Origin: Planctomycetota bacterium
GTDB lineage: Bacteria > Planctomycetota > UBA1135 > UBA2386
Assembly (NCBI GenBank): GCA_947444055.1
Contig: CANEYR010000012.1
Span: 1-64,000 of the forward strand
Direction: 5' to 3'
Length of the DNA stretch: 64,000 bases
A program made the translations under genes and the position numbers. Shown here piece after piece: positions 47,607-51,770 of this stretch. Position 1 is the first letter of the stretch. Each line of letters begins with the position of its first letter. Under the pieces are notes generated by a model that saw nothing but the letters and a program-made list of their open reading frames with translations, had not been told where the DNA came from and searched no databases.

Positions 47607-50600
47607 CTATCGGCCGATGGCGGACCTCGCGCTGAGCACTTCACGGGCCGGACGATCGATTTCCGGTGACGACACGAGCGCCAGCGGACTGGCCGTGGCG
47701 AACTTCACACCAGCGCGTGTGCAGTTGCGCCATGCCACCGAGGCCCTGCGCACTTCGGCCCCGACATGCAGTTCGAAGGCGGCGGTGGGCAGCGCACTCG
47801 GGTTGTCGATCTCAATCTGGGCTCCTTGCGCACTGACGTTGCGAATACGCACCGGATGCTGCCAGTCGCCCAGGCGCAGCTCGCCCGTCAGGTCGACTGG
47901 TTGGCGTGGGCGCCGCCGTTCGGGAACGAGTTCGACGACGCCGTTGCGCCGCAGGCAGACGACATCGCCGGTGGTCAGGCGACGCGTCGCATCGACGACG
48001 CCGACTACGGTGGCTAGGTTGTGTTCACGCGCTTGAATCGCCGCATGTGACAACCAGCCGCCGATTTCGGTGATCAATCCGCTTGCTACCGGGAACGCTG
48101 ACAGCCAGCACGGATCCGTGCAGCGCGCTACCAGAATCTCACCGCGCACCAGTTCGCTGAGTTGTTCTGGCGAGGTGAGTACGCGCACCGGGCCGACCAC
48201 TTCACGATTGCCGGCGACACACGTGCCGTGCATCGCACCTGTGAGAGCCTCGATTGGGCTCGGCGATTTCCCCAGCGATTCCATGCAGGCAAGCGACAAC
48301 TGCGTCGGCAGTTGCACGGGGAGCAGCGCCTGCCGTAGTGCTTCGCGTTGGGTGGCGATCGCGAGTGCCTCGCGGTGCATGGCAGGCTCGTGCAGTCGAC
48401 GAACTTCATCGGGCAACAGCTCGAACACGGCGAGACCTAGGCCGAAGCGGGCGCCGACGTGGAGGAGCAGGCTGCGCAGCAAGGACAACTCGCGCATGGC
48501 TTCGTGCTTGGCTTCTTCCTTCAACGCTTGGCAGCGGCGTGCGCGCGTCAACGCCGTCGTCAGCACTCGCCCCTGTGTCGTCGTTGTCGTTGTCGTTGTC
48601 GTTGTCGTCGTCGACGGGGCCTCGCCCGTCATTGCGGCGCTGCTCCGAGCCATCATCGCGAGCACCTTTGGCGTGTCCTCTTCGTAGCGAGCCTCGGCCA
48701 ACTCCAAGTCATGGGGGGCGCGGTGGCCAAAGTCAGCGAGGAACGCCGCCAGCTTGGCGGCGGAGTTGCGGGGACCCGTCAGTTGCGCAAAGGCTCGGCT
48801 CGTCACGTTGCCATCCGGATCGCGCAACAAGGCAGCCGCATCGAGCCCGGCCCGTTCGGCGCGCCGGCGGGCGGCATCGACAAAGAACCCAGCCGCTAGG
48901 TTGACCATCTCGGCTTCGACGTAGGTGCTACCGACGAAGTGCGCGCGGACGTCCTCACACAACTGCAACAGGTCGGCGTCACCCAGGCGCGCCGGGTCGA
49001 TTGCCGCCAAGTGCGTCACGCGCTGCCGACGGGCCGGTTGTCCAGTTCGCCAAGCGTCTTCAAGACTTTGGGCGGACGCGGCCATGCGGAAGCTGGCGAC
49101 TGCAGACAGCGCCTTCTGGCTGCGTTCTCGCCGTTGGCGAACATTGACAAAGCAGCGACCAAACGCGGTCTGCACCAGCGGTGCGCTGTCGACGGCGACG
49201 TCGTACGGGAAGGCGTTGGCGCGGCAGGCACGATCGACGCTGCCGCCGGCTTCCCACAGCGATTGGAACAGCGCCAAGCTGTACGTGGTTGGCGCCGGCA
49301 GCAGTTCGGTGATCTCGGTCTGCTCAAGCACGATGCATTCGGCGGGCTCATTGGCGAACTGCTGCAGCAGGCGTGCGCGTTCGGCTTCGATGGCGCCGGC
49401 GACATCCTGTTGTCCGCGCAGGACGGTGATGTCGCGTGCTTGCACCAACTGGAAGTGGCCATCGGCATGCACCCACTCGATGTCCTGTGCGGCGCCGAAC
49501 AGGGTCTCAACGCGACGCGCCAACGCGATCAATTGCTCGAGCGGCAGCGGTGGTGCTTCGTCGCCACACAGCGTGCCGGTGATGCGCCCGAAGCGGAATG
49601 ACTTCGGTGTCGCGCGGCCACTGACCAGTGCATCGCAACCGCCCGCCACCAACTCAACCAGCATGCGACCGGCATGCGCGGGATCGACCGTGAACAGCAC
49701 GCCCGAGTACTGCGCCTGGCGGAAGGCTTGCACGACCACGCCACCTGGCCTGCCGCCGTATGAGCTGCGCACCAAGCCGATCGCATGGGGCAAGTTCGCA
49801 GGCAGCACATCGAGTTCCGTGCGGAACATGCCGGCCATGCTGCTCGTCGCGCTGTCTTCCCCTTGGGCCGAACTGCGCACAGCCGCGTTGACGATCGCGG
49901 CCCGCGCACACGCCGCTTGCAGGGCGCGTGCATCGCACCGGACTCCGTGCGGCACCACGAAACCATTTGGCACCGGCAGCCCAGCTGCGAGCATGCGGCC
50001 GAGACGCACCGCCTTGTTGCCGAGATCGAGGTGAGCAGCCGCTTGCACCAGGGTCAGCAAGTGCATCGGCGTCGGCACTGCTTGCGGCACTGCCTGCGGC
50101 AGCTGCGCGCCGCGGCTGAGCCATCGCCGTTGTGCAACCGTCTGCAACGCCATCAGGCCGAGGCTGACCATCAAGTAGATGAGCACGGCGGCGCGGCTCT
50201 GCCACACCAGTGCCACCATGATCACCACGAACAACGTCGGCAGCACCCAGCGACGCTTGTTCTGCTGCTGCAGCCGCACAAAGGCGAACATGCAAACGCC
50301 GAACAGGACTGGCAGCACATAGATCGCATCCGCCGTCGAGAGATCGAACCAAAGCACGGCGGTTGGTCGCGCTGCCGCGATCGTGTCGATGCCGCTGAAG
50401 GCCGCGGCGAACAGGACGATCTGCACCAGCGCGCCGACGAGGTTGCGCAACGGGGAGACGCCTTGGCGGCGCAGTTGACGCATGGCCTCGCGACGCCACA
50501 CCGCCGGATCGTTGGTCCACTCGGTGCGCAGTGCCGCGAGGCGCGGTGCGAGTTGGCGTTGCGCCCACTGGTCGCGTTCGGCAAACAGCGAGAACGGCAA

Positions 50601-51770
50601 CATCATCGCGCGCAGCAGCAACACCAACACGACGATGGCCAGCAAGAGGCTGCTGCGGTCGGCGAGCCACGTGACGAGACGACCGACGGTTTGGCCAACC
50701 AACCCAAACAGGGTGTCGCCTTCCCGATCGGCGCGCCACTGCGCGACCCATGCCGATTCCGTCGTTGGCGGGACGAACTCGTGCGGCACCGTGTAGCGCC
50801 CGCGAAAGTCAGCGCCGAGGCGATGCAGCCGCAGGCCGAGCAACAGGCCGTAGAACGAACTGCGCTTGTCGTAGCAGGCGGCGACAATTGGTCGCGCTGG
50901 CAGCGCCCGCAAGGCGGCGTCGACTTCGTGGGCGCGCATCTTGCGCAGTGGCACGTTGATGGCGCCGGGCAAGTGCTCGCGCGCGAAGTCCTCTGGGTAG
51001 CGCACGTCGACGATCACCGCACCCTGCGTCGCCAGCAGGTCCATTACCAGAGGCGTATCGAGCAACGTTTCTTTCTGGGGGTAGTCCGGAGTCGCGCGGA
51101 TGTCGGTGCCATCGGCGCGATTCCCGGTCATGGGCCGGTATTCGGCAACCCACTTTTCGTAGCCGCCGACCATGAAGCGAGTCGTGATGCCGCGCTCGAA
51201 AAACCAATCGCAGAGCTCTGAACTGCGGTTGCCCGATTCACACAGCAGCACCGTCTCCTTGTCGGCCACGACGAGACCGTCCGTGTCTACTTGCAGGTCG
51301 GGGTAGCGGCGTTCCCACGTGTCGGGAATCTGCCCCATCTCGACTTCTTCTGGCTCGCGCACGTCGATCAGGTTGACGGGCTTGCTCGCGGCGACCCATT
51401 CCGCCAGCAGGTCCGTGGTGACGCCGCGGGGGTGTTTGCTCTGGCCGCTGAACGACAGCGTCTTGAGCGACGTATCGCCGACTGCCTTCTGCGCCTCGGT
51501 CGACTTGCGGACCAGGTTGGTCCGCAACCGCTGGTTGTGCAGGTCCTGCACGTGCAGGTGGTACAGCAAGAACGCGCAACTCACCGAGAGCAGGAGCCCT
51601 AGCGTGACCAGGAACGGCCACCGCGAGGCCATTCGGGGGGGCGTTCCGCCAACAGCATGACGCTGTCGTACGAAGGCACCGCCGCCGAGCGCCAAGGCGA
51701 GTAAGCCGAGCAGTTGCCCGGCACTCGCAAACAAGTTCAGGAGGACGTCAGGGGATGGAATCGCCAGCAC
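47607..51770 (-). CDS. 1387-aa membrane fusion: rhodanese x2, YidC/Oxa1-like, PPDK/RPH-like ATP-grasp, PEP-utilizer swivelling His domain, PilZ
   Basis: Rhodanese LLCESGNRSS; YidC-like LLLRAMMLPF...LRRQGVSPLRNLVGALVQIVLFAAAFSGID; ATP-grasp AAVRSSAQGEDSATSSMAGMFRT...IEWVHADGHFQLVQARDITVLR; His domain ARCTDPCWLSAFPVASGLITEIGGWLSHAAIQAREHNLATVVGV; PilZ RRRPR...RIRNVSAQGAQIEI. Confidence 0.88.
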   Translation of the reverse strand: MLAIPSPDVLLNLFASAGQLLGLLALALGGGAFVRQRHAVGGTPPRMASRWPFLVTLGLLLSVSCAFLLYHLHVQDLHNQRLRTNLVRKSTEAQKAVGDTSLKTLSFSGQSKHPRGVTTDLLAEWVAASKPVNLIDVREPEEVEMGQIPDTWERRYPDLQVDTDGLVVADKETVLLCESGNRSSELCDWFFERGITTRFMVGGYEKWVAEYRPMTGNRADGTDIRATPDYPQKETLLDTPLVMDLLATQGAVIVDVRYPEDFAREHLPGAINVPLRKMRAHEVDAALRALPARPIVAACYDKRSSFYGLLLGLRLHRLGADFRGRYTVPHEFVPPTTESAWVAQWRADREGDTLFGLVGQTVGRLVTWLADRSSLLLAIVVLVLLLRAMMLPFSLFAERDQWAQRQLAPRLAALRTEWTNDPAVWRREAMRQLRRQGVSPLRNLVGALVQIVLFAAAFSGIDTIAAARPTAVLWFDLSTADAIYVLPVLFGVCMFAFVRLQQQNKRRWVLPTLFVVIMVALVWQSRAAVLIYLMVSLGLMALQTVAQRRWLSRGAQLPQAVPQAVPTPMHLLTLVQAAAHLDLGNKAVRLGRMLAAGLPVPNGFVVPHGVRCDARALQAACARAAIVNAAVRSSAQGEDSATSSMAGMFRTELDVLPANLPHAIGLVRSSYGGRPGGVVVQAFRQAQYSGVLFTVDPAHAGRMLVELVAGGCDALVSGRATPKSFRFGRITGTLCGDEAPPLPLEQLIALARRVETLFGAAQDIEWVHADGHFQLVQARDITVLRGQQDVAGAIEAERARLLQQFANEPAECIVLEQTEITELLPAPTTYSLALFQSLWEAGGSVDRACRANAFPYDVAVDSAPLVQTAFGRCFVNVRQRRERSQKALSAVASFRMAASAQSLEDAWRTGQPARRQRVTHLAAIDPARLGDADLLQLCEDVRAHFVGSTYVEAEMVNLAAGFFVDAARRRAERAGLDAAALLRDPDGNVTSRAFAQLTGPRNSAAKLAAFLADFGHRAPHDLELAEARYEEDTPKVLAMMARSSAAMTGEAPSTTTTTTTTTTTTQGRVLTTALTRARRCQALKEEAKHEAMRELSLLRSLLLHVGARFGLGLAVFELLPDEVRRLHEPAMHREALAIATQREALRQALLPVQLPTQLSLACMESLGKSPSPIEALTGAMHGTCVAGNREVVGPVRVLTSPEQLSELVRGEILVARCTDPCWLSAFPVASGLITEIGGWLSHAAIQAREHNLATVVGVVDATRRLTTGDVVCLRRNGVVELVPERRRPRQPVDLTGELRLGDWQHPVRIRNVSAQGAQIEIDNPSALPTAAFELHVGAEVRRASVAWRNCTRAGVKFATASPLALVSSPEIDRPAREVLSARSAIGR
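48576..48611 (-). repeat. Poly-Thr tract (12 consecutive Thr) from an ACG/ACA microsatellite
   Basis: Plus strand tgtcgtcgttgtcgttgtcgttgtcgttgtcgtcgt; hexanucleotide-like repeat within the 47607-51770 CDS. Confidence 0.95.

Follow-up and report, generated by a model that had tools for sequence, protein, structure and literature searches.

The minus strand of the window, by which we mean the whole 64,000-nucleotide stretch analysed (positions 1 to 64,000 of contig CANEYR010000012.1, assembly GCA_947444055.1, Planctomycetota bacterium), encodes at 51770-47607 a protein of 1387 amino acids (aa) that joins two transmembrane segments (TMs), two rhodanese domains, a YidC-like core, a dikinase of the rifampin phosphotransferase (RPH) type and a PilZ domain. 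The family to which this fusion belongs is a real and conserved membrane enzyme; the single domains are known, and their arrangement and the module in which the gene lies are new. Comparison of gene neighbourhoods places the gene in a conserved three-gene module with a putative periplasmic binding protein of the PtxB/AioX type and a predicted histidine kinase. We read the fusion, at a probability of about 0.45, as a sensor-controlled, two-sided inner-membrane enzyme that is the effector of this module and handles a small oxyanion or sulfur compound. The preliminary description of the stretch, made from the letters, had given the coordinates, the uninterrupted frame and the domain order correctly and had considered the architecture undescribed; no paper describing it, and no published phenotype for the gene by locus tag or accession, was found in the openly licensed literature. 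The present work adds the predicted location of the rhodaneses in the periplasm and, directly downstream, the sensor pair that is conserved together with the fusion.

Domain organization, catalytic residues and membrane topology

The fusion gene is read from a GTG start codon with cgagg just upstream. At the Pfam cut-offs the window protein matches PPDK_N (6.5e-21), 60KD_IMP (1.1e-19, residues 377-546), Rhodanese in two stretches (9.3e-18), PEP-utilizers (8.9e-17, residues 1209-1273) and, marginally, PilZ (1.3e-4, 22.7 bits against a cut-off of 22.5). The motifs CESGNRSS (C177), LLLRAMMLP (with R387), TEITELLPAPTT, GGWLSHAAI (H1242), RxxxR and NxSxxG are present. AlphaFold models of the two halves of the protein (residues 1-555 and 556-1387) were of medium confidence, with mean predicted local distance difference test scores (pLDDT) of 73 and 72. 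In Foldseek searches the first model matched YidC (3wo6) at a target TM-score of 0.69 and single rhodanese domains at 0.87-0.89, and the best match of the second was full-length RPH (5hv1, E 2e-23, 18% identity). The YidC assignment of the preliminary description is thus borne out by both profile and fold, as is its RPH-type layout without a phosphoenolpyruvate (PEP)-binding barrel; the window protein has no PEP_C match in Pfam.

The C-terminal half shares the order of ATP-grasp, middle domain and C-terminal His swivel with RPH (RPH-Lm, PDB 5hv1/5fbs) and with the RPH superfamily (HpeHI, PpsAB, CreHI), in which PigC/RedH are placed by NCBIfam similarity. The likeness extends to the ATP-grasp residues, the swivel His and an Arg/Lys-Glu..Lys phosphotransfer motif, and Pfam and Foldseek agree on the features of this superfamily: an N-terminal ATP-grasp, a C-terminal swivel His and no barrel. 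Unlike RPH, the fusion is membrane-anchored behind rhodanese and YidC domains. It is not RPH proper, as the structural alignment gives 18% identity, compared with >42% to RPH-Lm for the rifampin-specific clade, and its score for RIF_Ptrans_rph is 115 bits against a cut-off of 999. No NCBIfam equivalog cut-off was reached; the sub-cut-off matches include RedH, PEP-synthase-like PRK06241 models, PigC and RPH. PEP synthase and PPDK were also rejected, as the PEP/pyruvate-binding barrel is missing and the swivel His stands at residue 1242, behind the middle domain and not centrally.

Conservation was examined in an alignment of 22 divergent members from three lineages (planctomycetes, gammaproteobacteria and roseobacters). 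The swivel H1242, which had been described as intact, is found in 22/22 members, as are C177 of rhodanese 1 and both R387 and P392 of the YidC core, while C299 of rhodanese 2 is kept in 21/22. Also invariant are K586, R632, Q681, E765, Q777 and R779 in the ATP-grasp and E954, N957, R1017, E1023, R1028, K1084, E1085 and K1088 in the middle domain. In an alignment of hidden Markov models (HMMs), K1084-E1085-x-x-K1088 aligns with R-E-Y-P-K of RPH. Block 9 of RPH carries a catalytic Arg-Glu and Lys that are conserved to the far end of the RPH superfamily (PMC4844700), and in our own reading the K-E-x-x-K of the fusion is its likely counterpart, with Lys for Arg. All recognised catalytic residues are present, which supports, as judged from these residues, a catalytically competent C-terminal half. 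By region, invariant positions make up 15-18% of the rhodaneses, 16% of the ATP-grasp (35/216), 11% of the swivel domain, 5% of the middle domain and 2% of the YidC core (4/186). There are none in the N-terminal TM pair and PilZ, so that the YidC-like part is the least conserved region after these two. In the window protein, a GTC/GTT triplet array at 48577-48613 (TRF: period 6, 5.7 copies) gives rise to 12 consecutive Thr residues in the middle domain, a run missing from the aligned planctomycete relatives.

PilZ, marginal in the window, is clear in relatives and therefore real. It reaches the cut-off of Pfam PF07238 in five of them (G360, the best, at 1.3e-10; G201, 9.5e-7; G375, 2.5e-6; G063, 3.1e-5; and the gammaproteobacterium G627, 1.3e-4), lies below it in G104 and G016, and by Pfam and alignment is lost or degenerate in several lineages (the roseobacters, G036, L032, G560 and the G056 clade). 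Of the earlier proposal of gating by cyclic di-GMP (c-di-GMP), the domain itself therefore stands, but gating cannot be the core function since several lineages lack it.

Membrane anchoring, also proposed earlier, is seen in hydropathy, Pfam and Foldseek as a TM pair and a YidC-fold core. Averaged over the family, hydropathy gives two TMs ahead of the rhodaneses and a TM block behind them. The net charges of the segments alternate: -0.8 for the N-terminus, +4.1 for loop 28-50, -5.2 for the rhodanese segment, +6.2 for loop 394-443, -1.8 for loop 463-481 and +2.9 for loop 501-508. By positive-inside logic the rhodanese pair is therefore predicted to be periplasmic and the dikinase cytoplasmic. 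Several relatives have, in the alignment and gene calls, a signal-peptide-like extension ahead of a conserved AIPSPD. A linker motif, D-x-SLKTLSFS-x-Q-x-x-HP, lies between TM2 and rhodanese 1 (residues 99-114; 51429-51476, minus strand); it is strongly kept across the family and falls outside every Pfam domain.

In E. coli YidC, the P1 domain is periplasmic and lies between the N-terminal TM and the core. The fusion resembles YidC/Oxa1/60KD_IMP proteins in its core TM2-TM6 fold, in the invariant groove Arg and in having an extracytoplasmic domain at that position, where, on the predicted topology, the tandem rhodaneses occupy the place of P1. It differs from them in its two rhodaneses for P1, an extra N-terminal TM, a core joined to a cytoplasmic enzyme, and low conservation. 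Here a YidC core would have been recruited to form the membrane portion of an enzyme whose catalytic domains lie on either side. With tandem rhodaneses and thiosulfate sulfurtransferases the fusion shares the fold and the active-site loops CxSGNRS and CYDKRS with the catalytic Cys; unlike these, it has a Cys in both domains of nearly all members and is membrane-bound and predicted to be periplasmic. The features of the fusion and its two module partners are listed in Table 1.

Table 1. Positions of the fusion gene, its predicted domains and the two adjoining module genes in the window
Feature	Coordinates	Strand	Basis
Fusion gene (TM pair, rhodanese x2, YidC-like, RPH-type dikinase, PilZ; 1387 aa)	47607..51770	-	ORF list, Pfam, 22-member alignment
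TM1, residues 9-27, N-terminus predicted outside	51690..51746	-	family hydropathy and charge, alignment
TM2, residues 51-69, predicted in to out	51564..51620	-	loop before net +4.1, 292-residue segment after net -5.2
Rhodanese 1, ~residues 116-215, catalytic C177 in CESGNRSSE, predicted periplasmic	51126..51425	-	Pfam, alignment, Foldseek
Rhodanese 2, ~residues 232-335, C299 in CYDKRSS, predicted periplasmic	50766..51077	-	Pfam, alignment
YidC-like core TM2-TM6, ~residues 370-555, R387 and P392	50106..50663	-	60KD_IMP, Foldseek 3wo6 and 6al2, alignment
ATP-grasp, PPDK/PEP-synthase/RPH type, ~residues 570-785	49416..50063	-	Pfam, invariant residues, HMM alignment to RPH
RPH-like middle (substrate) domain, ~residues 815-1175, K1084-E1085-x-x-K1088	48246..49328	-	alignment, match to RPH R-E-Y-P-K
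Phosphohistidine swivel domain, ~residues 1180-1280, H1242	47931..48233	-	PEP-utilizers, alignment
PilZ domain, ~residues 1283-1365	47676..47924	-	Pfam 1.3e-4, stronger in relatives
PtxB/PhnD/AioX-type periplasmic binding protein	46694..47599	-	PF12974 4.7e-45, PDB matches
Hybrid histidine kinase HAMP-HisKA-HATPase-REC	44821..46671	-	domain search, gene calls

The sensor pair beside the fusion

The likely ATG of the binding protein, at 47599, lies 7 bases past the fusion stop (the longest frame begins at 47644), and that of the hybrid kinase is at 46671 (longest frame from 46767). In tblastn searches both genes adjoin the fusion in most planctomycete loci and in the gammaproteobacterium L032, with varying order and orientation, and on the roseobacter plasmids that were read the kinase, binding protein and fusion lie together, adjoining zinc-transport genes. 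Among 392 planctomycete genomes the binding protein (E < 1e-50) was found in 14, the long fusion in 12 and both in 11 (Fisher p = 6e-18, a value that overstates independence because the genomes are related). The sole fusion genome without a binding protein match, G389, is 55% complete. Conversely, the binding protein is found with no long fusion match in G048, G122 and G142, with the kinase adjoining it in the latter two, and a plasmid of Pseudorhodobacter turbinis, which gave no match to the fusion, has the binding protein with a 752-aa frame after it.

Variants of the module were found in two gammaproteobacteria. In G560, whose fusion has no PilZ domain recognised by Pfam, a HAMP-PAS-GGDEF-EAL protein takes the place of the kinase after the binding protein (L182:3103-5628, minus strand), and in G627 a kinase and a LuxR-type response regulator adjoin the fusion. 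No DNA-binding response regulator was recognised beside the module kinase except in G627, and gene neighbours past the sensor pair are not conserved between lineages. On the roseobacter plasmids L200, L197, L198, L199 and L201, a zinc/metal ABC transporter and a Fur-family regulator gene adjoin the module, and the plasmids with such neighbours include the TM1040 megaplasmid; a zinc connection and simple synteny are both possible. The three module genes have no PADLOC match, and anti-phage defence was rejected.

The PDB relatives of the binding protein are PhnD/PtxB phosphite and phosphonate proteins, ArrX and an AioX-type protein. Its stretches FGPxS(Y/F), FAFGDxxST and HD, which carry the signature of the oxyanion pocket, are nearly invariant in 20 members, and the same stretches are found in PtxB. 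AioX and ArrX, known oxyanion sensors, are free-standing binding proteins whose signal passes through a histidine kinase (PMC5908839), and TtrS and ThsS, which have a PhnD-like domain, respond to tetrathionate and thiosulfate (PMC5408782). The binding protein and kinase would most naturally be read as an oxyanion sensor because these relatives sense oxyanions. As in AioX-AioS, ArrX and TtrS/ThsS, a PhnD/PtxB-type binding protein or domain goes with a histidine kinase; unlike them, the module kinase is in most cases of the hybrid type, carrying a receiver domain, and the pair accompanies the fusion and not a respiratory reductase or oxidase. Rhodaneses are linked to thiosulfate, and for that reason a sulfur oxyanion may serve as a reasonable first guess at the ligand, although the pocket resembles the phosphite proteins at least as well. 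Such a sensor-plus-effector module is common to planctomycetes, gammaproteobacteria and roseobacters.

Proposed mechanism and competing explanations

The fusion most likely couples sulfur transfer in the periplasm to ATP-to-AMP phosphotransfer in the cytoplasm, on a substrate that we infer. In the periplasm, the binding protein would load a small oxyanion and switch the kinase, following the logic of AioX-AioS. Sulfur transfer by the rhodanese pair is plausible from its active-site loops; the two domains would form Cys persulfides (C177, C299) from a thiosulfate- or sulfane-like donor. The cytoplasmic dikinase would convert ATP to AMP and Pi via phospho-H1242 and phosphorylate a small acceptor held in the middle domain. 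What happens to the compound on one side of the membrane would in this way be coupled to its being activated or trapped on the other. For the YidC-like core a role as scaffold or conduit is more probable than one as a general insertase, and PilZ, where present, may add c-di-GMP control. If the sulfur reading is true, the fusion would handle sulfur oxyanions in a new way.

Several observations weigh against this proposal. The topology is a prediction from charge and hydropathy, and the nearest solved relatives of the binding protein take phosphite, phosphonate and arsenic oxyanions, not sulfur compounds. The sensor pair lies elsewhere in the genome in G056 and G104, it is found without a fusion in G142, G122 and the P. 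turbinis plasmid, and no binding protein was seen adjoining the fusion in G627. C299 is replaced by Val in G036. The middle domain is divergent among members, and the acceptor is for this reason not predictable. In the 22-member tree the branches are long, and several of the forks are unresolved.

The alternative that survives best, itself unlikely, is vectorial phosphorylation, in which the core would let a small molecule reach the cytoplasmic face, where the dikinase would phosphorylate and so trap it at once; the rhodaneses would modify or capture the molecule outside, in the group-translocation logic of the phosphotransferase system (PTS) with ATP as donor. The two-sided predicted topology, the conserved active sites and the periplasmic binding protein and sensor kinase encoded alongside are consistent with this, and HpeHI, an RPH-related dikinase, has been proposed to trap phenolics by phosphorylation (PMC12167813). 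However, there is no transporter fold besides the divergent YidC core, YidC folds are not known as small-molecule channels, and the binding protein is paired with a kinase, not a permease. If trapping does occur, it would be a new kind of uptake.

A signalling protein, a shade less likely, would use the rhodaneses as redox or sulfur sensors and the dikinase half as a phosphohistidine relay or regulator, not as a metabolic enzyme. The sensor kinase encoded alongside, the PilZ domain of many members and the GGDEF-EAL protein that replaces the kinase in G560 all suit this idea, but the protein has retained the whole of an RPH-like substrate domain, invariant polar residues included, which points to catalysis on a substrate.

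Less probable again is a specialised membrane-protein insertase, that is, a YidC paralogue with rhodaneses for P1 and a cytoplasmic half that regulates insertion. The YidC fold, the invariant groove Arg R387 with P392, and 60KD_IMP scores that pass the Pfam threshold in the majority of the members scanned (though not in G056 and G063) speak for such a role. Against it, the region has 4 invariant positions, compared with 35 in the ATP-grasp, and the distribution is patchy. The fusion is not the cell's main YidC, as another 60KD_IMP locus outscores it in 5/5 genomes searched (that of G000 being a partial match within a 189-aa frame). Protein translocation, which the preliminary description had offered, is not supported, given the same poor conservation and better-scoring genes.

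A little further down the scale, and likewise unlikely, is an ATP-driven system unrelated to the PTS that resembles group translocation and combines a periplasmic sulfur-transfer stage, a YidC-fold conduit for small molecules and a trapping dikinase, controlled by an oxyanion sensor of its own and in many members also by c-di-GMP. The unusual domain combination could raise the suspicion of an assembly chimera or chance frame, which is negligible and already refuted: independent copies, each in a single frame, come from planctomycetes, Gamma- and Alphaproteobacteria, some of them on the complete plasmids of strains in culture.

Distribution of the family

The same fusion, which the preliminary description had proposed to look for in related planctomycetes, is found there as full-length single frames. 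Such relatives, 35-66% identical to the window protein, occur in many planctomycetes, a few gammaproteobacteria and on roseobacter plasmids. Identity is 61-66% for G016, G003 and G004, 43-44% for G015, 40-42% for G056 and 35-37% for G036. There are relatives in the family and order of the source, and 14/154 genomes of its class carry N-terminal matches. Phylum-wide, 12/392 planctomycete genomes have long matches over the rhodanese and dikinase parts, a count that includes the window's own genome and two matches cut by contig ends. The search of 274 genomes in the class of the gammaproteobacterium L032 gave three carriers. In these two class-wide searches (274 and 154 genomes) the parts were never encoded separately, all N-terminal matches lying in frames of 1266-1725 aa.

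A scan of genome_contigs with two short patterns, in which other phyla are sampled to a limited extent, gave 8 metagenome-assembled genomes that include planctomycetes and 2 that are gammaproteobacterial; there may be further family members in other phyla. In Bacillaceae and some other scan matches only a rhodanese domain aligned, and these were set aside as not being the fusion. The window protein has no relative in viral_contigs, and a viral origin was rejected. The roseobacters form one clade in the 22-member tree; neither the planctomycetes nor the gammaproteobacteria resolve into a single clade. The patchy distribution suggests, but does not prove, transfer between groups.

The fusion is carried by 82 plasmid records, from Phaeobacter, Leisingera, Tritonibacter, Parasedimentitalea and Ruegeria. 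Two laboratory organisms in culture carry it, so that its function can be tested now: Phaeobacter inhibens DSM 17395, where it lies on the 262-kb plasmid, and Ruegeria sp. TM1040. In P. inhibens the three module genes are PGA1_RS19230, RS19235 and RS19240. The 262-kb plasmid is the tropodithietic acid (TDA) plasmid, with the TDA cluster at PGA1_262p00800-00980 (PMC12363192). A link to TDA was set aside, as this cluster lies outside the stretch around the P. inhibens fusion, and the neighbourhoods read in Leisingera and Parasedimentitalea have no genes annotated for TDA. The roseobacter records opened label the fusion only as 'PEP/pyruvate-binding domain-containing protein', a label that can lead metabolic reconstructions to take it for PEP synthase. 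In Leisingera aquimarina, Aqui_4951 of pAqui_B243 was counted in CO2 fixation as a 'phosphoenolpyruvate synthase' (PMC3910692); it may be this fusion, since related Leisingera plasmids carry the fusion under a similar name.

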